From Pseudomonadota bacterium (GTDB taxonomy: Bacteria; Pseudomonadota; Gammaproteobacteria; Steroidobacterales; JBCBZW01): a stretch of DNA of 64,000 bases. Position numbers and translations under genes: made by a program. The DNA is taken from contig JBCBZW010000002.1 of NCBI GenBank assembly GCA_039815145.1, forward strand, positions 1 through 64,000, written 5' to 3'. Under the pieces are notes generated by a model, which worked only from the letters and a program-made list of their open reading frames with translations, did no database searches and was not told where the DNA came from. Of this stretch, positions 5,881-60,716 are shown one piece after another; position 1 is the stretch's first letter, and every line of letters starts with the position of its first letter.

Positions 5881-7839
5881 ATGAGCTACCTCGTGCTGGC
5901 GCGCAAGTGGCGCCCCAAGAACTTCAGCGAAGTGGCGGGCCAGGAACACGTCCTGCGCGCCTTGATCAACGCGCTCGACAACGATCGCCTTCACCACGCC
6001 TTCCTGTTCTCAGGCACCCGCGGGGTGGGCAAGACGACCCTCGCGCGAATCTTCGCCAAGTCGATCAACTGCGAGCGCGGCGTGAGCTCCACGCCCTGCG
6101 GCGAGTGCAGCGCATGCGTGGAGATCGATCAGGGGCGCTACGTCGATCTGCTGGAGGTGGACGCCGCCTCGCGCACGCGCGTGGATGACACGCGCGAACT
6201 GCTCGACAACGTGCAGTACGCACCGACTCGCGGCCGCTACAAGGTGTACCTCATAGATGAGGTGCACATGCTGTCGACGCACTCCTTCAATGCGCTGCTG
6301 AAGACCCTCGAAGAGCCGCCTTCCCACGTGAAGTTCCTGCTGGCGACGACGGATCCACAGAAGCTGCCGGTGACCGTGTTGTCGCGCTGCTTGCAGTTCA
6401 ACTTAAAGCGCCTGCCGCCCACCGTGATCGAAGCGCAGCTCACGCGCATCGCCGAGGCGGAGGGCTACGCCCATGAGGCTCCAGCGCTCGCGCTCATCGC
6501 GAGCGCGGCCGATGGCAGTATGCGCGATGCCTTGAGTCTGCTCGATCAAGCGATCGCCCACGCTGGGGGCAACCTCATGCGCGATGCCGTGGCGGATATG
6601 CTCGGCACCGTCGACCGCACGCACGTCCTGCGCCTACTGCAGGCATTGACCGACGGCGATGGCTCTGCGCTCATGCACGTGGCGAGCGACCTGGCCGAGC
6701 GGGGGCTGGGCGCGGACAGCGTGCTCAGCGAGCTCGCCAGCGGTTGTCAGCAGTTGGCGCTCGCGCAGGTGGTGCCCGATGCCCTGGCGGAGCGGGTACC
6801 GGACGCGGAGGCCATCCAGGGCCTCGCGGGTCGAGCGCCCGCGGATGCCGTGCAGCTCTGGTACCAGATCGCCGTGAATGGACGGCGAGACCTGCCGCTC
6901 GCGCCCACGCCGTGGTTGGGGTTGGAAATGACCCTGCTTCGCATGCTCGCGTTCCAGATGGAAGGCGAGGGTGACGGCGGTTCGGGCGCCGGCGGACAAG
7001 CCGTGGGTGGCGCTGCGAAGAAGCCACGCGACACGTTGGCGCGATCGGGCGCAGGTAAGGCGAGCGGTCCAACCGCATCGGCTCCGAGTGGGGCGGTAGC
7101 GAGTGCGCCCCCGCCGGTGCGCGTACCCGCCGAGTCCCCGCCGACCCCGCCATCGGAACCGCCGCCGCCGGTGAAGACCGAGGCCAAGGCAGCGACGCCC
7201 AAGGTCACCCCACTGCCGCCGCCTGCCGCGCCGGTGGTCGAGGCGCCCGCAACGCCGCCCGTCCCGACGAAGGCTGCGCCCACGCAGGCCGCTGAGAACC
7301 CGCCGACGCCCGTCGCCTCGCGGGTGACCTCCGATCCGCCCACCCAGGCGGACTGGGAACGCTTTGCCCAGTCACTCGGCTCGAGTGGCATGCTCCGCCA
7401 GCTGGCGGACAACAGCGTGGTGACCGGGGTGGAGGGCCAGATCCTGCGCTTGCAGGTGGACGAGGCCCGAGAGCACCTGCTCACGCGCCAGCAGTGTTCG
7501 ACGATGGAACAGTCGTGGCGTGAACACCGCGCCGAAGAGGGCTGGCGCCTGGACTTTTCCGTCGGTCAGCCGCAGACGCAAACCGCTGCCCAGCGGGCCG
7601 AGATCGCACGCTCCGAGCGCCATGCCCAGGCGGTGCGATCGATGCACGAGGATCCTTACGTCAAGGCCTTGCAGCAGACCCTGGGCGCGCAATTGCTGGA
7701 GGAGACGGTGCAAGCGCGCCAGGGCCCCTCGCGTACTGGCGTCAGCGCCGTGGCACCCGGCAAGGAGGGTGCACCCGCGAAAGGAGGGCGAACCGCCGCG
7801 CCGTCGGCACCGCACGTCCGCGAGGCAGGCGGCCGCTAA
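5881..7839 (+). CDS. dnaX: DNA polymerase III subunit gamma/tau
   Basis: A 652-aa clamp-loader ATPase subunit. Walker A is GTRGVGKT (45–52), the four Zn-ligating Cys are 64, 73, 76 and 79, Walker B is LIDEVH (124–129) and the sensor SRC motif is at 168–170. AAA+ and collar domains extend to about 360. A Pro/Ala-rich linker (~375–480) precedes the tau-specific C-terminal domain that contacts DnaB and the polymerase alpha subunit. Length agrees with a full tau. No A-rich slippery heptamer for programmed frameshifting to gamma was noticed. First gene of dnaX–ybaB–recR, downstream of ffs. Confidence 0.97.
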   Translation: MSYLVLARKWRPKNFSEVAGQEHVLRALINALDNDRLHHAFLFSGTRGVGKTTLARIFAKSINCERGVSSTPCGECSACVEIDQGRYVDLLEVDAASRTRVDDTRELLDNVQYAPTRGRYKVYLIDEVHMLSTHSFNALLKTLEEPPSHVKFLLATTDPQKLPVTVLSRCLQFNLKRLPPTVIEAQLTRIAEAEGYAHEAPALALIASAADGSMRDALSLLDQAIAHAGGNLMRDAVADMLGTVDRTHVLRLLQALTDGDGSALMHVASDLAERGLGADSVLSELASGCQQLALAQVVPDALAERVPDAEAIQGLAGRAPADAVQLWYQIAVNGRRDLPLAPTPWLGLEMTLLRMLAFQMEGEGDGGSGAGGQAVGGAAKKPRDTLARSGAGKASGPTASAPSGAVASAPPPVRVPAESPPTPPSEPPPPVKTEAKAATPKVTPLPPPAAPVVEAPATPPVPTKAAPTQAAENPPTPVASRVTSDPPTQADWERFAQSLGSSGMLRQLADNSVVTGVEGQILRLQVDEAREHLLTRQQCSTMEQSWREHRAEEGWRLDFSVGQPQTQTAAQRAEIARSERHAQAVRSMHEDPYVKALQQTLGAQLLEETVQARQGPSRTGVSAVAPGKEGAPAKGGRTAAPSAPHVREAGGR

Positions 7840-7899
7840 CCGTATCTCGGGCGGTGCTCGACATGCCGCTCAACCCAACCTTACGAGAAGAGGACAACC

Positions 7900-8220
7900 A
7901 TGAAGGGCGATATCGGCAAGCTGATGAAGCAGGCCCAGAAGATGCAGGCCGACATGCAACGCGCACAGGACGAGCTGGCCAACGTGGAGGTGACCGGCCA
8001 ATCCGGCGGCGGCATGGTGAGTGTGACCATGACCTGCAAACACGAAGTGAAGTCGGTCACCATCGACGATGCCTCCGCGATGGAAGACAAGGAGATGCTG
8101 GAGGACCTCGTCGCCGCCGCCGTCAACGATGCCCTGCGCAAGGTGGAGGAGACCTCCAAGGAGCGCATGTCCGGTCTGGCGGCCGGTCTGATGCCGCCGG
8201 GCATGAAGCTGCCGTTCTAA
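7900..8220 (+). CDS. ybaB: YbaB/EbfC family nucleoid-associated protein
   Basis: A 106-aa DNA-binding protein, a dimeric nucleoid-associated factor. The N-terminal helix ([16 protein letters not shown]), the [16 protein letters not shown] strand region and the [13 protein letters not shown]-terminus are hallmark segments. The ATG at 7900 follows a GAGG-type ribosome site. Sits 60 nt after dnaX and 16 nt before recR, the standard operon order. Confidence 0.96.
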
Positions 8221-8236
8221 GGCCCATCCTGCGACC

Positions 8237-8833
8237 GTGATCTACTCGCCGCTACTCACCCGCCTCATCGAGGCCCTGCGTTGCTTGCCGGGCGTCGGGC
8301 CGAAGAGCGCTCAGCGCATGGCCTTTCACCTGCTCGACCGCGACCGCGAGGCAGCGCGCACGCTGGCGTCCGTGCTGGCCGACGCCGCGCAACGCATGGG
8401 GCGGTGCCGCGAATGCCGGATGTTGAGTGAGGTGGAGCTGTGCGCCGTCTGCGCCTCGCCGCGTCGCGACGACGGTTTGCTGTGCGTGGTGGAGTCGCCC
8501 GCCGATGTGGTTGCGGTAGAGCAGACCGCGGACTACTCGGGCAAGTACTTCGTTCTCATGGGCCATCTATCACCCCTGGACGGGATTGGCCCCGCTGAAC
8601 TCGGCCTGGACGTGCTGGAACAACGCCTCAGCGAGCGCACGCCGCGCGAGCTCATCCTGGCCACCAACCCCACGGTGGAGGGCGAAGCCACCGCGCACTA
8701 CGTGGGCGAGTTGGCCCGCGAAGCCGGGGTGCAAGTCACCCGCATCGCCCACGGCGTGCCGCTGGGGGGCGAGCTGGAGTACGTCGATGCGGGCACACTC
8801 TCTCACGCCCTGTCGGGTCGCCAGCGCTTCTAA
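8237..8833 (+). CDS. recR: Recombination mediator protein RecR
   Basis: A 198-aa RecR of the RecFOR pathway, which loads RecA at gaps. Helix-hairpin-helix ([17 protein letters not shown], 17–33), a Cys4 zinc module (C57, C60, C69, C72) and a Toprim domain starting with LCVVES (~82–87) and containing [15 protein letters not shown] are present. The start is GTG at 8237, 16 nt after ybaB, and no earlier in-frame start gives a better N-terminus. Convergent with rsgA. Confidence 0.96.
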
Positions 8834-8855
8834 GGGCCCCTTTCGGGACGGGGCG

Positions 8856-9860
8856 TCAGTGGTGACCGCGACCCAGCGTTTCCATTAGGCGAACCAGGCG
8901 CCGATAGCTCTCGTAGCGGCGTGGGGCCAAGGTGCCGGGGCCATCCCCCGCCAGCGCCGCGCGCACCGCGCAGTCCGGTTCCTGCATGTGCAGGCAGTTG
9001 TGGAACCGGCACCCCTCCGCCAGGGCACGGATATCCCGAAAGCCCTTGGCGACTTCCGCCTCACCCACACGCCCCGGTGCGTAGTCGCGCACGCCCGGGG
9101 AGTCGATGACCTGGCCGCCATCGGGCAGGTGATGGAGGTGGGCGGCGGTGGTCGTGTGTCGTCCCTCGCCGGAGCTCTCCGAGAGTTCACCGGTCGCAAG
9201 GTCCAGGTCCGGCACCAGGGCGTTCAGGAGGGATGATTTGCCGACGCCCGACTGGCCCACGAGGATCGATGTGTCCTGGCGTAGGGCGTGGGCGAGGGCC
9301 TCGATGGTGTCCGGTGCGGAGATGGCGACGCGCAGGGTGTCGTAGCCGGCGTCGCGCCATTCCGCGAAGGCCTGCTCCAGCAGGTCCTCATCGTCGTCGA
9401 GGGAGGGCAGATCCCCTTTGCTGCGCACGATGAGCGCTTCGCATCCCATGAGTTCCGCCTGGGCGAGGTAGCGATCGACCATGAAGGGATCGGGAGCCGG
9501 GGCGGGCGCCACCACCACCACGAGGCGGGTGACGTTTGCCGCCAGCACTTCGTTGAAGCCTCGAAGGTTGGGGCGCTCCAGGGCGTTGCGGCGAGGTTCG
9601 ATGGCGAGGACCTGGCCGTCGCGGGCGCCGGCGGCGGCGCGCTGCCAACGCACGTGGTCACCGCAGACGATGCGCAGGCCGCGCCCGCGGGGCACGCAAC
9701 GGTGGCGTTTGCGAGGCGGGTCGCCGGTGTCCTCCACGAGGCAGCGGCGGCCGAAGCTTGCCACCACGAGTCCCGCCTCGGCAGCCTCGGCGTCAGCCGG
9801 GCGCGACCCACCTCGTCGGCCCGGCCCACTCCGCTCGCGACGACGGCCCCCGCCTGGCAC
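8856..9860 (-). CDS. rsgA: Ribosome small-subunit maturation GTPase RsgA
   Basis: A 334-aa circularly permuted GTPase that acts late in 30S assembly. An N-terminal OB fold (~30–90) precedes G motifs in the permuted order: G4 at ~147–150, G1 GQSGVGKS (202–209), the G2 region GRHTTT and G3 DSPG. The C-terminal zinc ligands are in CRFHNCLHMQEPDC (Cys, Cys, His, Cys). The G4 box reads SKGD rather than the usual NKxD, which could alter guanine affinity. The GTG start at 9860 is accepted from the frame; the first ~25 residues are Arg/Gly-rich and a later start is possible. Lies 15 nt downstream of the M48 protease gene, so co-transcription is likely. Confidence 0.93.
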   Translation of the reverse strand: MPGGGRRRERSGPGRRGGSRPADAEAAEAGLVVASFGRRCLVEDTGDPPRKRHRCVPRGRGLRIVCGDHVRWQRAAAGARDGQVLAIEPRRNALERPNLRGFNEVLAANVTRLVVVVAPAPAPDPFMVDRYLAQAELMGCEALIVRSKGDLPSLDDDEDLLEQAFAEWRDAGYDTLRVAISAPDTIEALAHALRQDTSILVGQSGVGKSSLLNALVPDLDLATGELSESSGEGRHTTTAAHLHHLPDGGQVIDSPGVRDYAPGRVGEAEVAKGFRDIRALAEGCRFHNCLHMQEPDCAVRAALAGDGPGTLAPRRYESYRRLVRLMETLGRGHH

Positions 9861-9875
9861 AGGCGCCGTACCGGC

Positions 9876-11126
9876 TCAGCGGCTGCTGGCGAGTTGGTGC
9901 AAGCGGGCGATGCGGATCGGAGCCGGAGGGTGTGAGTCGTAGAAGCGCGAGTGGGTCTCGTCCGGGGTGAGCGTGTTCGAGTTATCCCGGTAGAGCTTCA
10001 CCAGCGCCTCGATCAGCGCCGTGGGATTGGACTGCTCGGCCGCGTACTCATCCGCCTCGAACTCGTCCTTGCGCGAGAGCGCCGCGGTGATCGGCGTCAT
10101 CGGGAAGGTGAAGACGGGGGAGACCACCAAGGCCAGGAGCAGGGCGAGGGCGTCGGTGGGCACGGTGACACCGAGCGCTGCCATGGCATCCGGCGAGGCG
10201 CGCAGCCAACCGATCAGGGCCAGGCCCACTAAGGTCAAAGCGAAGCTCGTCATTAGGCGCTTGCGCACATGCTGGCGACGGAAATGGCCGAGCTCGTGGG
10301 CCAGCACTGCCTCGATCTCCTCACCGTTCAGCGACTCGAGGAGCGTGTCGAAGAACACGATGCGCTTGTTGTTCCCCATCCCGGTGAAGTAGGCGTTGCC
10401 GTGGCTGGAACGTCGCGAACCATCCATCACGAAGACGCCCTGGCTCTTGAAGCCACAGCGCTGCAGCAGCGACTCGATCTGCGCCTTCAAGCCGTCGTCC
10501 GTGAGTTCCGTGAAGCGATTGAACATGGGCGCGATGAAGGCGGGGTAGAGGTAAAAGAGGGCGAGGCTGAAGGCCACCCACACGCCCCACGCGTACAACC
10601 ACCACAGGCTCCCGGCGGCCGCCATCAGCCACAGGACGACGGCGATCAGCGGGGTGCCGATCACGGCCATCAGGACCAGCGTCTTGATCTGGTCGGAGAT
10701 GAACAGCGCGGGAGTCATGCGGTTGAAGCCGAAGCGCGCCTCGATGCGGAAGGTGCGCCAGATCGACAGGGGCAGCTCCAGGGTCGACATCGCGATGAAG
10801 GTGATCAGGGTGACCAGCGTGCCGGTGAGCAGCGGACCGAGCTGAAGCGAGGACACGAGCGAGTGGACCAGCATCAGGCCGCCGCCCAGGGTCCAGAATA
10901 GCAGCAGCGCGGCGTCCACCACCGTGCCGATGCGGCTCAAGCCGGTCGTGGCCATGGTGTAGTCCGCGGCCTTGTGATGCTGCTCCAGGGAGATGGTGTC
11001 GTCGAAGGGCGCCGGCACTCGGTCACGACCGCGGCGCACGGCGGCGATCTGTCGACTGCTCAGCCACAGGCGCACGATGGTGGTCGCTGCCAGCAGGGCC
11101 AGGAAGAGGGGCGTCATCCAGTGCAT
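9876..11126 (-). CDS. M48 family membrane metalloprotease (Ste24/CAAX protease 1-like)
   Basis: A 416-aa integral membrane zinc protease. It has an N-terminal M48_N-type membrane domain (several hydrophobic segments, ~1–200), then the catalytic HELGH motif in [13 protein letters not shown] (~278–290) and a third zinc ligand in the downstream [11 protein letters not shown] helix (~354–364). Length and layout match bacterial Ste24-like enzymes rather than the shorter HtpX. Bacterial members are thought to work in membrane-protein quality control; the substrate is unknown. Upstream of and close to rsgA on the same strand, divergent from orn. Confidence 0.9.
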
Positions 11127-11328
11127 CGTTGAGTTGTGTCCTAGCTCGTTGATTAGCTTCGCGTTCGAGGCTGCCGCGGGGCGCGACTCGGCGCTGATGG
11201 TAGTGGTATTCCCGTACCGCGCTCAAGATTCCAGCGCTCGACAGGGGGAATTGTGGGCGGCGACACGCATTTACAAGTGCGTCACAGGCATAGGCGCACG
11301 GGTCGCTGCGCTGCTAGACTCCCGGCCT

Positions 11329-11883
11329 ATGGTAGCAAGCCCCGAAAACCTGATCTGGATCGACCTGGAAATGACCGGTCTCGATACCGTGAATGACCAG
11401 ATCATCGAAATCGCCACTGTCGTGACGGATAAGCACCTCGGCCTGATCGCCGAGGGTCCGGTCCTCGCGATCCACCAGCCGGACGAAGTGCTGGAAGGGA
11501 TGGACGATTGGAACAAGCGCACGCATGGGGAGTCGGGTCTCGTCGATCGCGTGCGTGCTAGTACGGTTACCCCGGAGGAAGCCCAGACCCAGACCCTGGA
11601 GTTCCTCCGCCAACTCGTGCCCCCGCGCAACTCGCCCATGTGCGGCAGTAGCATCTGCCAGGACCGTCGTTTCATGGCCCGGTTAATGCCGGACCTCGAG
11701 CGGTTTTTCCACTACCGAAACCTCGATGTGAGCACGCTGAAGGAACTCGCCAAGCGCTGGGCGCCGGGCATGGCGGAGCGCTTTGAGAAGCGCGCGCCTC
11801 ACGTGGCGTTGGACGACATTCACGAGTCCATCCGTGAGCTGCGCTACTACCGCGAGCATTTCATTTCCCTTCCCAGCGAGTAA
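11329..11883 (+). CDS. orn: Oligoribonuclease (DEDDh 3'-5' exonuclease)
   Basis: A 184-aa Orn, which degrades 2–5-nt RNAs and pGpG and thus finishes both RNA decay and c-di-GMP turnover. Exo[10 protein letters not shown] holds D12 and E14; ExoII lies around CQDRRF; Exo[17 protein letters not shown] supplies His and Asp. The start is the ATG at 11329: it gives the normal length, while the frame extended to 10993 runs through the non-coding divergent promoter region of the M48 gene. A PilZ protein elsewhere in the window (38,073) is consistent with c-di-GMP signalling in this organism. Confidence 0.96.
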
Positions 11884-55578: not shown

Positions 55579-55689
55579 CAGGCGTGGTCTTCGAAGGTCA
55601 TCACTCGTCAGTATAGCGTCCGACCCATGCCCTCGCTGGCGGCGATGCGCTGATACACTGGGGTTCGCGTGTTCCACCCGGGAAGACCA

Positions 55690-56775
55690 ATGAGCGATAA
55701 GGCGTCAGATGGGCCCGCCGCCGCTGCCAAGGCGCCGCCGTTTGAAATCTCCGTGTCCCGCCAATTCGTGCCGTGGCTGGTGGAAGTGGGTGCCAGCCTG
55801 GCCTTTACGACCTATCAGGTAGGTAAGGTGTTCTGGATCGGCCTCAAGCCCGACGGTCGCCTCGAACTCTTCAACCGCACCTTCAATCGCTCGATGGGGA
55901 TGTACTGCTCCTCGCAGACCCTGTACCTGAGCACGCTCTACCAGCTGTGGCGCTTCGAGAATGCCTTGGGCCCCGAGGAACGCCATCAGGGCTACGACCG
56001 AATGTACGTACCGCAATGCGCGTGGACCACCGGCGATATCGATATCCACGACATCGCCCTCGACAGCGCCGGGGGGCCCATCTTCGTCAGCACGCTCTTC
56101 AGCTGCCTGGCGCGGCCCAGCGAGACGCACAGCTTTGCTCCGGTGTGGAAACCGCCCTTTATTTCCCGCTTGGCGGCGGAAGATCGTTGCCACATGAACG
56201 GCCTTGCGATGGTCGACGGGCGTCCCGGCTACGTCACCGCCGTCAGTCGCAGTGATGTGGCCGACGGTTGGCGCGAGCGTCGCGAAGGCGGTGGGGTGAT
56301 GATCGATGTGGCGTCGGGTGAGGTGGTAATGGATGGCCTCTCCATGCCCCACTCGCCCCGATGGCACGACGGCAAGCTCTGGGTGCTGGACTCGGGCAAC
56401 GGCCGCTTCGGTTGGGTCGATACGCAGGCGGGGCGCTTCGAGGAGGTTGCCTTCTGCCCGGGCTATGCACGCGGGCTGGCCTTCGTTGGGTCGTACGCGG
56501 TCATCGGCCTGTCACGGCCGCGCGGTGAGCGCAACACCTTCGCGGGGCTGGCTTTGGATAAGGCGCTGCGCAAGCGCGACGTCGAGGCGCGCTGCGGTCT
56601 CATGATCGTAGACTTGAGGACGGGCGACGCGCCGCACTGGCTACGCATCAGCGGGGTGGTGGAGGAACTCTACGACGTGGGGGTGTTGGCGAGCGTGATA
56701 CGCCCTATGGCCATCGGTCTGCAATCCGATGAGATCCGGCGCACGCTGAGCGTGGCGCCTGCGGCCGACTTGTAG
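55690..56775 (+). CDS. TIGR03032 family protein
   Basis: A 361-aa protein of the TIGR03032 (DUF4915-like) family, which is linked in other bacteria to TPR and sulfotransferase-type genes but has no known activity. Recognisable segments: SRQFVPWLVEVGASLAFTTYQ, FNRTFNRSMGM, VPQCAWTTGDIDIHDIAL, HMNGLAMVDGRPGYVTAVSRSD, GKLWVLDSGNG and FCPGYARGLAFVG. The repeated strand pattern implies a beta-propeller. No signal peptide, so cytoplasmic. ATG at 55690 follows GGGAAGACC. Confidence 0.85.
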   Translation: MSDKASDGPAAAAKAPPFEISVSRQFVPWLVEVGASLAFTTYQVGKVFWIGLKPDGRLELFNRTFNRSMGMYCSSQTLYLSTLYQLWRFENALGPEERHQGYDRMYVPQCAWTTGDIDIHDIALDSAGGPIFVSTLFSCLARPSETHSFAPVWKPPFISRLAAEDRCHMNGLAMVDGRPGYVTAVSRSDVADGWRERREGGGVMIDVASGEVVMDGLSMPHSPRWHDGKLWVLDSGNGRFGWVDTQAGRFEEVAFCPGYARGLAFVGSYAVIGLSRPRGERNTFAGLALDKALRKRDVEARCGLMIVDLRTGDAPHWLRISGVVEELYDVGVLASVIRPMAIGLQSDEIRRTLSVAPAADL

Positions 56776-56789
56776 CCGGCACGGGCTGC

Positions 56790-57167
56790 TCAGGCCAGGG
56801 CGGAGTCGTTAGCGTTTGCGATGGCATCAGCCACCGTCGCTAGCAGTAGCGATGCGTCGAAGGGCTTGCTGAGCAGGGCGAAGGCGCCGCACTCGTGCGC
56901 TCGTTGGTTGAGGCTAGGGTCTCGGTTAGCCGTGGCCAGGACCACCTCGATGGCCAGGCGCTCGCGCAGGCGCGAGGTGAGCTCGAACCCGTTGCCGCCG
57001 GGCAAGCAGACGTCGACGATCGCGGCCTTCGGAGGCGATTCCAGCGCCTTGGCAAATGCCTCTTCCACGTGGGAAGCCGTGATGACAGCGTAGCCGGAGT
57101 GCTCCAGGCGCATGGTGAACGCCCTATTCAGGTTCTTGCTGTCTTCGACCAGCAGGATCCGTGTCAT
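56790..57167 (-). CDS. Stand-alone response-regulator receiver
   Basis: A 125-aa CheY-like REC domain without output. Acidic pair E8–D9 (LLVEDS), phospho-acceptor D52 (IVDVCLPGGNGFEL), T79 (ATA) and K101 (LSKPFD) are all present. It must act by protein contact or as part of a phosphorelay; no histidine kinase is in the window. The ATG at 57167 is used; the extension to 57230 has no ribosome site. Convergent with the TIGR03032 gene. Confidence 0.9.
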   Translation of the reverse strand: MTRILLVEDSKNLNRAFTMRLEHSGYAVITASHVEEAFAKALESPPKAAIVDVCLPGGNGFELTSRLRERLAIEVVLATANRDPSLNQRAHECGAFALLSKPFDASLLLATVADAIANANDSALA

Positions 57168-57478
57168 GTACCTTTTCTCTTCCCCGCATCCCGTTGGAAT
57201 GCACGCGGACGCGCGTCCGCCCCGGGGCAATGCATCAGCGCTCTAGCGTGGGGCGAGGCGCTCGGGATGTCTAAGCGATCTGGCGCTGTCCGCAGATCCC
57301 TGTGATGGTGGTCACAAGGGGGGTGTCAACGACCTGACAATAGTGCGCCGAGCGCTTGCTTGCGAGCCATCCGATGAGGCTCATGTGCGTCATTGGCGCG
57401 TCATAAGAGGCCGTCCATCGAGTAAACAATAGTCCAGCTACTGCGTTATGGACTGAGTTCAGACTAAAATGGTCGCCC
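57168..57478. promoter_or_regulatory. 311-bp divergent intergenic region
   Basis: It separates the receiver gene (minus) from the exported DUF6777-like gene (plus). The middle is less GC-rich. TAAAAT at about 57463–57468 may be a -10 element but lies only some 10 bp before the accepted GTG start, which would give a leaderless or nearly leaderless message. No RNA or repeat of note, apart from two GCGTCAT copies near 57388–57403. Confidence 0.35.
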
Positions 57479-58756
57479 GTGAAGCACTCGTCGACATTTC
57501 AGCCTTTCGTCAAACACGACAACGACGACCTCGCGCCGCGCCCTGTAGTCGGTAGGCGACAGGCTGGGCCAGGGCGTTGGCGCCAGCTGTTGGTGCCGTG
57601 GCTGCTGTTTGCCACCGCCGCTACGCACATGGCCACCGTGAGCGCCGCCGAGCAGCCGCGAGAGGTTGCCCCTGACAGTCGTGGCGCCGCCTCCTTCTTC
57701 GTGCTCCCGGTCGGTGAGCCTTACATCGATGTGCCCGAACGTGGCAGTGGCGCCTTCGATCCGGAGCTCATCACCCTCGGGGGCCTTTGGGCCCGCTACG
57801 GTGACCGCGAGTGGTACATACGCCTCGACCCGCAAGCTTGCGACCTCGCCGGTTTGCAAGCCGGCTTGACGAGGGATGCCTCGCGACGGGACGCATTCGC
57901 CGCCATCCTGGGCTGGCCCCGCAACGAAGTGGTGGGGCGCTTGGGTGCGCTGCGGGGGGGCTACCTGCAGTCGCACCTCGACGTGATCAACCACGGATTC
58001 AGCAATGGGGAGGCCTTCGGTAGCCCGAGAAGGCTCGCAGAAGGTACGGCGGTGCTGATCGACAATCGCGGCATCCCCGTGGTGCGTTGCGCCTGCGGCA
58101 ATCCGCTGCTGTCCCTTCCCCCGCAAGACGAACCCCCGTTGCCCGCACAGCTGGCCGATGGGGGACAGCTGACCGAAGCACCGAAGCTCGGCGACATCGA
58201 TGAGACGCCACTGAACCAATCGCAGACGGATGAGGGTGGCAACGATCCGGTCGGTACGACGCCTGAGGTGGATCCCGAGCGGTCAGCCCCCGTGGTGGTG
58301 GACCAGGAGGAGCAGGCCCCGCCGGAGGAAGCCGATCCCGCAGAGGTGCTCGAGGACATCCTGAGCGAAGACGAGCCCGATCCGATCCAGGTGGCCCAAG
58401 AGGAGCCGCTGGGCCCCGATGATCCCCTCGCTGATCTGCGCGCACCCCCGGTGCCGACGGGCGGGATGATCGGTGAGTTCCCAGAGGAGGAGCTGCCCCT
58501 CCCGCTGAGCGTCGTGGTGGTGGCTCTGCTGCCCATCGCCGACGAACTCGGTGACGATGTGGTGGGTGACGAGGCCGATGAGGTGGGCGGAGGCCTCGGT
58601 GGCGGCGGTGGTGAGATGCCGCCCGAGGATGAGGTGACCCTGCCGCCTCCTACCAGCGCCCCGGTGCCCGCGGCGGGTTGGCTGTTCGCCGGCGCCTTGG
58701 CGTGGCTGAGCGTCTCTCGAACGCGCCGCCGGCGCGAGGATTCCCTGGCCGCCTAG
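57479..58756 (+). CDS. Exported DUF6777-like protein with acidic repeat region and PEP-CTERM-like tail
   Basis: A 425-aa protein. The N-terminus is polar, then a hydrophobic segment (~38–55, LLVPWLLFATAATHMATVSA) acts as signal or anchor. Residues ~95–215 resemble the DUF6777 domain, otherwise familiar from actinobacteria, ending in GTAVLIDNRGIPVVRCACGNPLL with a C-x-C pair. Residues ~225–375 are Asp/Glu/Pro-rich and probably disordered. The tail (~393–425) has a VPAAGWLFAGALAW segment followed by RTRRRRE, matching the plan of PEP-CTERM/VPLPA sorting signals (motif, TM helix, basic end). No exosortase gene is in the window. GTG start without a clear ribosome site. Confidence 0.65.
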   Translation: MKHSSTFQPFVKHDNDDLAPRPVVGRRQAGPGRWRQLLVPWLLFATAATHMATVSAAEQPREVAPDSRGAASFFVLPVGEPYIDVPERGSGAFDPELITLGGLWARYGDREWYIRLDPQACDLAGLQAGLTRDASRRDAFAAILGWPRNEVVGRLGALRGGYLQSHLDVINHGFSNGEAFGSPRRLAEGTAVLIDNRGIPVVRCACGNPLLSLPPQDEPPLPAQLADGGQLTEAPKLGDIDETPLNQSQTDEGGNDPVGTTPEVDPERSAPVVVDQEEQAPPEEADPAEVLEDILSEDEPDPIQVAQEEPLGPDDPLADLRAPPVPTGGMIGEFPEEELPLPLSVVVVALLPIADELGDDVVGDEADEVGGGLGGGGGEMPPEDEVTLPPPTSAPVPAAGWLFAGALAWLSVSRTRRRREDSLAA

Positions 58757-58772: not shown

Positions 58773-60716
58773 TCAAGGCTGCTCGACGGGCGCCGCTAGC
58801 ACGTTGCTCACGATCGAATCCGACCCCTGTGCGCCCCGGCGAACCACCGCTTGAGCGAACAGCTCCTTTAGCTGCGGGTTCGCGCCCACGGTGATCTCGA
58901 GCGCGGCTTCGCCGGTGGCGTCCGCCACCGCGCTGCCGCGGTAGCTCCCGCCCTGCAGTTCCAGGCAAGCGCCGCCGAAGACGGGATAGCATGGCCCGCT
59001 CCCCACACCTTGCACCGAGGTGAAGAAGTGCGCCCGTTGCCCCGGGGCGATGCCGTCGAGGCGTAGCTCCGCCGTCTGCGCGGCCACCAGAGGGGAAGCG
59101 CTCAGCGGCGGCAACACTGTAATCGTCAGCCGTTGGTTGGTGCTCACGCCACGCAGGCTCGTGAGAAACCCGTCGGGGCCGATCGCCGTGACCTGCTGGG
59201 CCAGGGTGTGCGCTCCCATCCCGAAGTGGGCGAGTAGTTCGTGGCCGCCGAGGTAGCTGGCACCGCCGGCGATCATGCGCTGAAGGGTCTCACCGTTGGC
59301 GGAGAGGCGGATCTCGTAGCCTTGACCATCCGGGGCGACGTCGGGATGGGCGCTCGTGTCGACGAGCACTTCCAGCCAGTTGGCGTCCTCACCGGCGATG
59401 TCGTTGCGGTAGAGGCGCAGGGCGCCGCCGTGGGTGGAGATCACCAGGTCCATGTCACCGTCATGGTCGTAGTCCAGGAGGCCGAGGCTCCGGCCCTCGC
59501 CCGTGTGATCGAGGCCGATCGCCTGGCCCATCTCGGTGAAGGTGAGATCGGCGTTGTTGCGGAACAGGTAGGTGGGCTCGTTGCGCCAGTCCTCCCCGTG
59601 TACCGGATCGACGTGGGGCCAGCCGTTGGTCATGACGATGTCTTCCCAGCCGTCGTGGTCCAGGTCCAGGGGCGCGGTGCCCCAGCCGAAGCCGCCGTCG
59701 TTGACGCCGCCGCTCTCGGGCAGCTCCGTGAATTGATGGTTGCCCTCGCCGAGGTAGAGGCGATTGCCCGGGGGGCCCAGAAACTGCATGGAGGGGTAGG
59801 CCGCTGTCACGAACCAGTCGTAGTGACCGTTGCGGTCGAAGTCGGCGATGGTGGCTCCCATGCCGTGCCACACCTTGTTCTCACCGAAGATATCGACCTG
59901 GGTGAAGGTGCCGTCGCGGTCGTTGGCGTAGTACTGGGTGCCCCCACCGTCGTTGGCGATCATCAGCTCCGGATAGCGGTCGCCGTTCATGTCCGCGAAG
60001 ATCGCACCGAAGGCACCCGTTCGGTTGCGATTGCTGTGTACCACGCCCGCGGTCTGGGTGACGTCGGTGAAGGTGCCGTCGCCGTCGTTGCGGTAGAGGC
60101 GCGAGCGCGGTAGTTGCTGTTCCGCGTCGAACCACCAGCCGGAGACCCACAGATCGAGATCTCCATCGAGGTCGTAGTCACCGAAGGCGGGGCCGAAACC
60201 GTCAGGCTGATCGCCCAGGGCCTTGACGCCAGCCTGCTGGGCCACCTCCTCGAAGCCGGTGCCGGTATTGCGGTAGAGGCGGTGCACGCCGGGGGTAGGC
60301 ACCTCACCGGCATCCCCATGACTGGTGACGAAGAGGTCGATGTCGCCGTCCTTGTCGTAGTCGCCGGCCGCCGCGCCGTTACCCCGGTAGAGATCCGTAA
60401 GGCCCCACTCGGCGGCTCGATCGGTGAAGGTGCCGTCGCCGTTGTTGAGGTAGAGCACGTCCGCCGTGCCGCCGCCGCCCACGGCGAAGATGTCCGGCCA
60501 GCCGTCGCCGTTGAAGTCAGCGATCGTGGCGCCGCCGTGCATCTCACCGCCCACCTCGATATCGGCGATCGGGCTATGGACGAAATCGAGTCCGGCCGCG
60601 CTGGTTTGCTCCGAGAACGCCGGAGTGGCGCCCTGGGCGGGCATCGAGCTACCGAATAACAGGATTAGGGCGGCGGTGGCGTAGGCGGTGCCGAAGGAAG
60701 CGTGGTCGTGGGTCAC
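58773..60716 (-). CDS. Exported FG-GAP/VCBS repeat protein with ASPIC/UnbV domain
   Basis: A 647-aa protein with a signal peptide (~10–30). Repeated calcium-binding FG-GAP motifs of D-[FY]-[DN]-x-D-G type recur (e.g. IADFNGDGWPDIF, AGDYDKDGDIDLF, FGDYDLDGDLDLW, IADFDRNGHYDWF, LLDYDHDGDMDLV), building a seven-bladed integrin-like propeller (~45–440). An ASPIC/UnbV domain follows (~445–530, NWLEVLVD...GGASYLGGHELLAHFGMG), then a final beta domain. CRTAC1-like proteins of this type are extracellular; the bacterial role is unknown. Calcium-bound and surface or periplasmic by inference. Confidence 0.9.
   Translation of the reverse strand: MTHDHASFGTAYATAALILLFGSSMPAQGATPAFSEQTSAAGLDFVHSPIADIEVGGEMHGGATIADFNGDGWPDIFAVGGGGTADVLYLNNGDGTFTDRAAEWGLTDLYRGNGAAAGDYDKDGDIDLFVTSHGDAGEVPTPGVHRLYRNTGTGFEEVAQQAGVKALGDQPDGFGPAFGDYDLDGDLDLWVSGWWFDAEQQLPRSRLYRNDGDGTFTDVTQTAGVVHSNRNRTGAFGAIFADMNGDRYPELMIANDGGGTQYYANDRDGTFTQVDIFGENKVWHGMGATIADFDRNGHYDWFVTAAYPSMQFLGPPGNRLYLGEGNHQFTELPESGGVNDGGFGWGTAPLDLDHDGWEDIVMTNGWPHVDPVHGEDWRNEPTYLFRNNADLTFTEMGQAIGLDHTGEGRSLGLLDYDHDGDMDLVISTHGGALRLYRNDIAGEDANWLEVLVDTSAHPDVAPDGQGYEIRLSANGETLQRMIAGGASYLGGHELLAHFGMGAHTLAQQVTAIGPDGFLTSLRGVSTNQRLTITVLPPLSASPLVAAQTAELRLDGIAPGQRAHFFTSVQGVGSGPCYPVFGGACLELQGGSYRGSAVADATGEAALEITVGANPQLKELFAQAVVRRGAQGSDSIVSNVLAAPVEQP

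Follow-up and report, generated by a model that had tools for sequence, protein, structure and literature searches.

A DUF6777 domain joined to an acidic stalk and an exosortase-type C-terminal tail in a proteobacterium

The window, the whole stretch of 64,000 nucleotides that we analyzed, is the start of one contig (C2) of the source genome (G000), an assembly of 6.0 Mb in 295 contigs that is 99.51% complete. It contains a gene for a protein of 425 residues; this gene stands by itself, flanked by one divergent and one convergent neighbor, and a GTG start codon was assigned to it from the sequence. The gene, its parts and the region ahead of it are as follows.

57168 to 57478, no strand: gene-free stretch of 311 bp upstream, between the divergent response regulator gene (start taken as the ATG at 57167) and the DUF6777 gene.
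57479 to 58756, forward strand: whole ORF, 425 aa, an exported DUF6777 protein with an acidic stalk and a VPLPA-type tail (Pfam; syntenic 416-aa orthologue).
57479 to 57646, forward strand: putative N-terminal export signal, aa 1 to 56 (read by eye; start codon and cleavage site putative).
57647 to 57832, forward strand: N-terminal part of the mature protein, aa 57 to 118 (aa 57 to 113 identical to the orthologue at 50 of 57 positions).
57833 to 58114, forward strand: DUF6777 core domain, aa 119 to 212 (Pfam E 9.2e-21; three conserved Cys in CD...RCxCGNPL, and an NHG motif).
58115 to 58648, forward strand: D/E/P-rich stalk, aa 213 to 390 (composition and orthologue alignment).
58649 to 58753, forward strand: VPLPA-CTERM-type tail with a PVPAAGWLF motif, a hydrophobic segment and an RTRRRR basic cluster (tail profile from the same genome).

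The divergent gene (56790-57167, reverse strand) encodes a stand-alone response-regulator receiver domain, upstream of which lies a gene for a TIGR03032/DUF4915 protein (55669-56775, forward strand; 474 bits). The convergent gene (58773-60716, reverse strand) encodes a 647-aa FG-GAP repeat/UnbV_ASPIC protein, at the C-terminus of which we saw no sorting tail by eye. A second genome of the same genus (G001, locus L004) has an orthologue of the window protein, 416 aa in length, and the same neighbors are kept there, as judged by reading the ORFs: the TIGR03032/DUF4915 protein and the response regulator upstream and the FG-GAP/UnbV protein downstream. The stand-alone response regulator might be linked to regulation of the DUF6777 gene. 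PEP-CTERM genes are described as mostly single-gene operons that follow large intergenic regions (PMC1569441), and the lone gene with its 311-bp upstream stretch agrees with that pattern. The upstream motif reported for PEP-CTERM genes in that paper includes a sigma-54 promoter (PMC1569441). Such a promoter was considered for the DUF6777 gene and rejected: just two matches, each with two mismatches and both on the other strand (57152-57166 and 57314-57328), lie near the gene, and the whole window holds 55 sigma-54-type matches where 67 are expected by chance. A search for a sigma-70-type site upstream of the gene found none.

The putative export signal, as read by eye, consists of a long basic n-region, the hydrophobic stretch LLVPWLLFATAATHMATVSA and an A-x-A-type end ahead of AEQP. 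The stalk (178 residues) contains 47 D/E and 3 K/R, with P its commonest residue (30), which bears out the earlier note on this DNA in its description of a D/E/P-rich stretch joined to the domain. The final 35 residues of the protein are PTSAPVPAAGWLFAGALAWLSVSRTRRRREDSLAA; their motif is APVPA and not V-P-x-P-A, the usual first V being replaced by A. Alignment with the orthologue revealed identities of 19/52 in the signal, 89/99 in the domain (42 of its 52 changed codons being silent), 79/114 and then 47/60 in the stalk, and 24/34 in the tail, where PAAGWLFAGALAWL is unchanged. The orthologue tail carries the motif APAPA and a thin basic cluster (RLRGRPEAMAAA), and in both proteins another hydrophobic stretch, conserved between them, precedes the tail (LPLPLSVVVVALLPIADEL). 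The DUF6777 domain is under selection, the tail core is kept and the signal is drifting. An NCBIfam search of the protein listed no family, and no solved structure matched its sequence at E values up to 1.

Pfam found a single family in the ORF, DUF6777 (PF20568), at aa 119 to 212, scoring 74.7 bits (cut-off 27) with the E value given above, so that the DUF6777-like domain recognized earlier by eye is indeed present. The match covers positions 18 to 111 of the 163-position PF20568 profile, the C-terminal third of which is unmatched. For comparison with actinobacteria we assembled 87 frames, comprising 81 from the 79 of 80 loci in which the motif was found and 6 from plasmid loci; the one other locus of the 80 (L096) fell outside the motif search match and is not in the frame sets. 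After redundancy removal 46 of the 81 actinobacterial frames were left, 45 of which served as profile rows (L116 was left out). The resulting profile matches the window protein with 98.3 bits at aa 119 to 217 only and, run with filters off, within positions 71 to 167 of its 215 positions. Thus, a core is common to the window and actinobacterial proteins and neither flank matches. We also considered the LPLPLSVVVVALLPIADEL stretch (about aa 339 to 357) as a displaced W-G-Y...VVVV part of DUF6777, and rejected it because the actinobacterial profile with filters off matches the protein once only.

In model numbering, C66, C149, G152, N153 and P154 are invariant in the DUF6777 alignments and Cys151 and His117 almost invariant; in one plasmid row (L056) the last Cys is replaced by G. 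The three Cys and one His could conceivably form a metal site, an idea that comes from the residue pattern. AlphaFold2 modeled the window domain with a mean pLDDT of 75.4, exceeding 90 in the core and low before about aa 90, as three helices followed by a mostly strand half; the domain of an Antrihabitans protein (L064) was modeled with a mean pLDDT of 91.0 and a pTM of 0.88. Neither model matched the PDB at a Foldseek E of 0.001 or below or at a VIA-align Z of 2 or above, which does not by itself make the fold a new one. A literature search covering few subscription papers found no mention of DUF6777 or PF20568, and thus no published function on which to build.

Reading of the tails in the source genome distinguished two types, VP[LVI]PA..WL and PEP. 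The curated VPLPA-CTERM model (TIGR03370) gave the window tail 13.3 bits, under its cut-off of 25.35. We therefore scored it with a profile of 19 VPLPA-type tails from its own genome, namely the 23 VPLPA matches minus the window tail, L020, L021 and L025, a set that takes in tails under the curated cut-off; L025 joined the PEP-type tails, two partial matches (L020 and L021) and a match that is no tail (L050) were discarded, and L047 and L049 are in neither profile. With this profile the window tail scored 34.3 bits, inside the range of the 19 real tails when each was left out in turn (18.2 to 54.2), and the orthologue tail scored 27.1 bits. The maximum was 7.9 among 266 scored window-frame ends used as decoys, and two kinds of shuffle (1855 and 1985 scored), including ones in which the hydrophobic part stays separate from the basic part, reached at best 14.1 and 13.7. 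A genome-wide search with the 19-tail alignment gave 33.5 bits (E 3.3e-7) for the window tail and 24.2 bits (E 3.3e-4) for the orthologue. An 11-tail PEP-type profile gave the window tail 2.5 bits, a score reached by 5 of 261 scored window decoys. Furthermore, the window tail has a PAAGWLF core in common with the tail VPLPAAGWLF of another protein of the genome (L006) that scores over the curated cut-off. The match of the window tail to the genome's own VPLPA-type tails is beyond chance, and its resemblance to an exosortase sorting signal, first noticed from the letters alone, is real. A profile built from the tails of one genome can thus pick up an exosortase-type tail to which the curated model gives a score under its cut-off.

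The source genome encodes two exosortases. One is XrtD, the VPLPA-CTERM-specific family of NCBIfam, which scores 597.5 bits against a cut-off of 400; the other is XrtA, at 327.9 bits against 208, and it is adjoined by a FemAB-family XrtA-associated protein (476 bits). Further tails are many: 7 of 23 VPLPA-CTERM matches and 16 of 25 PEP-CTERM matches score over the curated cut-offs, some places being common to the two lists, and in 14 control genomes no VPLPA-CTERM or PEP-CTERM match exceeds its cut-off. The same-genus genome likewise encodes XrtD (601.5 bits). LptD was found in both genomes of the genus and therefore points to an outer membrane; together with the exosortases it is consistent with the source genome being proteobacterial. 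A search of the assembly for a 16S gene found none. Four VPLPA-type tail genes (L007, L049, L010 and L013) lie within 5.4 kb of another contig of the source genome (C15, 55162-60585) and three tail matches on a contig of the same-genus genome (C23, 48328-52936); these genes may form a tandem family whose products are sorted.

We also searched with the 19-tail alignment, at E values up to 10, ten further genomes of the same order alongside the two of the genus. The source genome gave 33 matches, its same-genus relative 39 and two other genomes 34 (G028) and 31 (G069), these last two also encoding an XrtD over cut-off. Hence, the four XrtD-over-cut-off genomes of the 12 have 31 to 39 tail matches, and the other eight have 2, 2, 3, 3, 3, 7, 15 and 27. 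Five of the eight (G047, G059, G079, G007 and G010) gave 2 or 3 matches each, with a best E of 0.0019, and two (G089 and G064) gave 15 and 7, with a best E of about 1.5e-6 and exosortase-like matches under the XrtD cut-off. The 27 matches belong to G087, a single contig that is 95% complete, where the best E was 2.4e-11 and where neither PF09721 nor TIGR04152 found an exosortase; another genome of its genus (G093) has one exosortase. Either G087 carries an exosortase in its missing stretch or a different enzyme handles its tails. VPLPA-type tails are thus no proof of processing by XrtD, because G087 has such tails with no exosortase found.

Taken together, these data suggest that the window protein is exported, sorted by its C-terminus and displayed on the cell surface as a binding protein, its tail most likely being cut by XrtD; we consider this explanation as a whole probable. 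The protein would cross the inner membrane by Sec export, as its by-eye signal sequence suggests, and the C-terminal hydrophobic segment and RTRRRR cluster would hold the precursor in that membrane. XrtD, encoded elsewhere in the genome, would most likely cleave at the PVPA motif and deliver the protein either to the surface of the cell or into the exopolysaccharide matrix, where the acidic, proline-rich stretch could act as an extended stalk that keeps the small DUF6777 domain off the envelope. This scheme follows the sorting model proposed for PEP-CTERM/EpsH, which combines a signal peptide, a C-terminal tag and a sortase-like enzyme encoded beside exopolysaccharide genes (PMC1569441). Overexpression of a PEP-CTERM protein in flocs is reported to raise bound exopolysaccharide and lower the released form (PMC9850573). 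By titles and abstract openings we found no literature on VPLPA-CTERM sorting, and XrtD did not occur among the literature matches listed. The earlier note would have been contradicted by a genome with neither an exosortase nor further PEP-CTERM-type proteins, and both turned out to be present, so that the sorting signal is well supported. Surface display, which the note had suggested, would follow from established knowledge of the system.

The tail might instead be an ordinary single-pass anchor, with the protein left unprocessed in the inner membrane and its domain in the periplasm. The unmet curated VPLPA cut-off, the first motif residue altered in both species and the further conserved hydrophobic stretch ahead of the tail fit such an anchor. 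A plain anchor is, however, hard to reconcile with a score on the genome's own tail set far over the decoys and shuffles, those separating hydrophobic and basic parts included, with the PAAGWLF core common to an over-cut-off tail, or with two exosortases in the genome, and we judge it distinctly unlikely. Processing by XrtA in place of XrtD could draw on the presence of XrtA with its FemAB partner and on the 11 PEP-type tails of the genome, but the PEP-type score lies in the decoy range whereas the VPLPA-type score is high, making XrtA a very improbable processing enzyme. XrtD is the likely enzyme since the VPLPA-type profile finds the tail and the PEP-type profile does not.

DUF6777 was found in 2 of 97 relatives, the source genome and its same-genus partner, and in 1 of 398 genomes sampled from the phylum, the source genome itself. 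A scan in which each species was represented by one genome returned at least 570 confirmed matches, the best 80 of which are all from Actinomycetota by title and 37 to 50% identical, in keeping with the earlier note's recognition of the domain as familiar from actinobacteria. Seven records of a plasmid collection carry DUF6777 (Streptomyces 4, Rhodococcus 2, Embleya 1), and a search of phages found none. In a tree of 89 rows, rooted at the midpoint and built on few columns, the window protein and its orthologue group together (100/100); their branch, 4.07 changes per column in length, lies outside the 87 actinobacterial rows. The GC content of the gene is 0.683 and its GC3 0.777, compared with 0.80 to 0.86 in nine neighboring genes, which is slightly low and not foreign-looking.

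Because the distribution is so patchy, being confined to one genus among the relatives, lateral movement is the economical reading, and lateral transfer of DUF6777 is likely. The possible transfer raised in the earlier note gains from this distribution, but the midpoint-rooted phylogeny shows neither donor nor direction. A recent transfer from Streptomyces was rejected, given a best identity of 50% over 90 residues (among the best 80 of at least 570 matches), the long branch and a GC3 near that of the neighbors. As to origin, which is separate from role, DUF6777 could also be old, vertically inherited and lost in most lineages outside Actinomycetota, as would suit a pair placed on a long branch outside the actinobacterial rows, a base composition close to that of the neighbors and a gene that both genomes of the genus retain between the same neighbors. 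Vertical descent would nevertheless need very many losses, the domain not being found in 95 of the 97 relatives and 397 of the 398 phylum genomes, and we regard it as unlikely.

A simple rule assigned an N-terminal TM segment to 51 of the 87 frames and a lipobox to 34, with 2 cut or having neither; the tail after the domain has a median length of 137 aa and a median D/E/P/S/T/Q share of 0.68. In Geodermatophilus telluris (L062), Pfam places a protein kinase domain ahead of DUF6777. Two neighboring frames of that locus (6657-11660) each run from kinase through membrane segment and DUF6777 to an acidic or low-complexity tail, the first by Pfam and its tandem neighbor by reading, and they read as putative receptor-type kinases with a DUF6777 ectodomain. 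In Rhodococcus (L051), Pfam finds DUF6777 followed by LCCL, and we found no literature joining the LCCL domain and Rhodococcus. Long acidic, Cys-bearing frames of 1421 and 1211 aa in actinobacterial MAGs (L063:1930-6192 and L089:1189-4821) have DUF6777 near the N-terminus and no further Pfam domain at E 0.001. With the kinase part of the Geodermatophilus locus as tblastn query, kinase-like matches were present in 36 of 86 actinobacterial loci, mostly upstream on the same strand, the species being related and the count standing without a random-locus control; an association of DUF6777 with kinase genes is weakly supported.

Judged by its context, DUF6777 would most likely bind a ligand or polymer rather than act as an enzyme, because the actinobacterial domain is placed outside the membrane on N-terminal anchors, the receptor-type Ser/Thr kinase of Geodermatophilus included. 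The union of a DUF6777 domain with an exosortase-type tail is a new arrangement of two known kinds. It provides a natural experiment on a domain of which little is known: actinobacteria hold it on N-terminal anchors, and a bacterium with an outer membrane holds it on a sorting tail at the C-terminus. The same core on opposite tethers would mark out the minimal functional unit (about aa 119 to 212) and speaks for an extracellular role. Our broadest proposal, which we put forward tentatively and at somewhat less than even confidence, is that DUF6777 may be an unrecognized extracytoplasmic ligand-binding fold with no relative of solved structure, the sensor head of receptor kinases and lipoproteins in actinobacteria, which this outer-membrane genus has moved from an N-terminal to a C-terminal, exosortase-processed tether. 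If true, the swap of tether and envelope type would imply that function resides entirely in the core of ∼97 residues.

Similar to VPLPA-CTERM and PEP-CTERM proteins (TIGR03370, PF07589; XrtD, TIGR04152), the window protein has a putative signal peptide (read by eye), a PxPA motif and a hydrophobic segment with a basic cluster at its C-terminal end, and XrtD is encoded in its genome; unlike VPLPA-CTERM proteins, its tail scores under the TIGR03370 cut-off and the first V of its motif is A. With the PF20568 proteins of Actinomycetota it shares the ∼97-residue core with its CD, NHG and GTAVLxDxxGxPxVRCxCGNPL motifs, export, and an acidic or proline-rich low-complexity stretch after the domain. 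The Actinomycetota frames, however, carry an N-terminal tether (TM segment or lipobox) in 85 of 87 cases, whereas the putative signal of the window protein is of the cleavable type and its tether is C-terminal, and many Actinomycetota proteins have a further C-terminal domain part (W-x-G-[YF]...VVVV) that is undetectable in the window protein. Finally, although Pfam finds neither the kinase of the Geodermatophilus protein nor the LCCL domain of the Rhodococcus protein in it, the window protein resembles both in carrying an extracytoplasmic DUF6777 domain at the tip of a tether.
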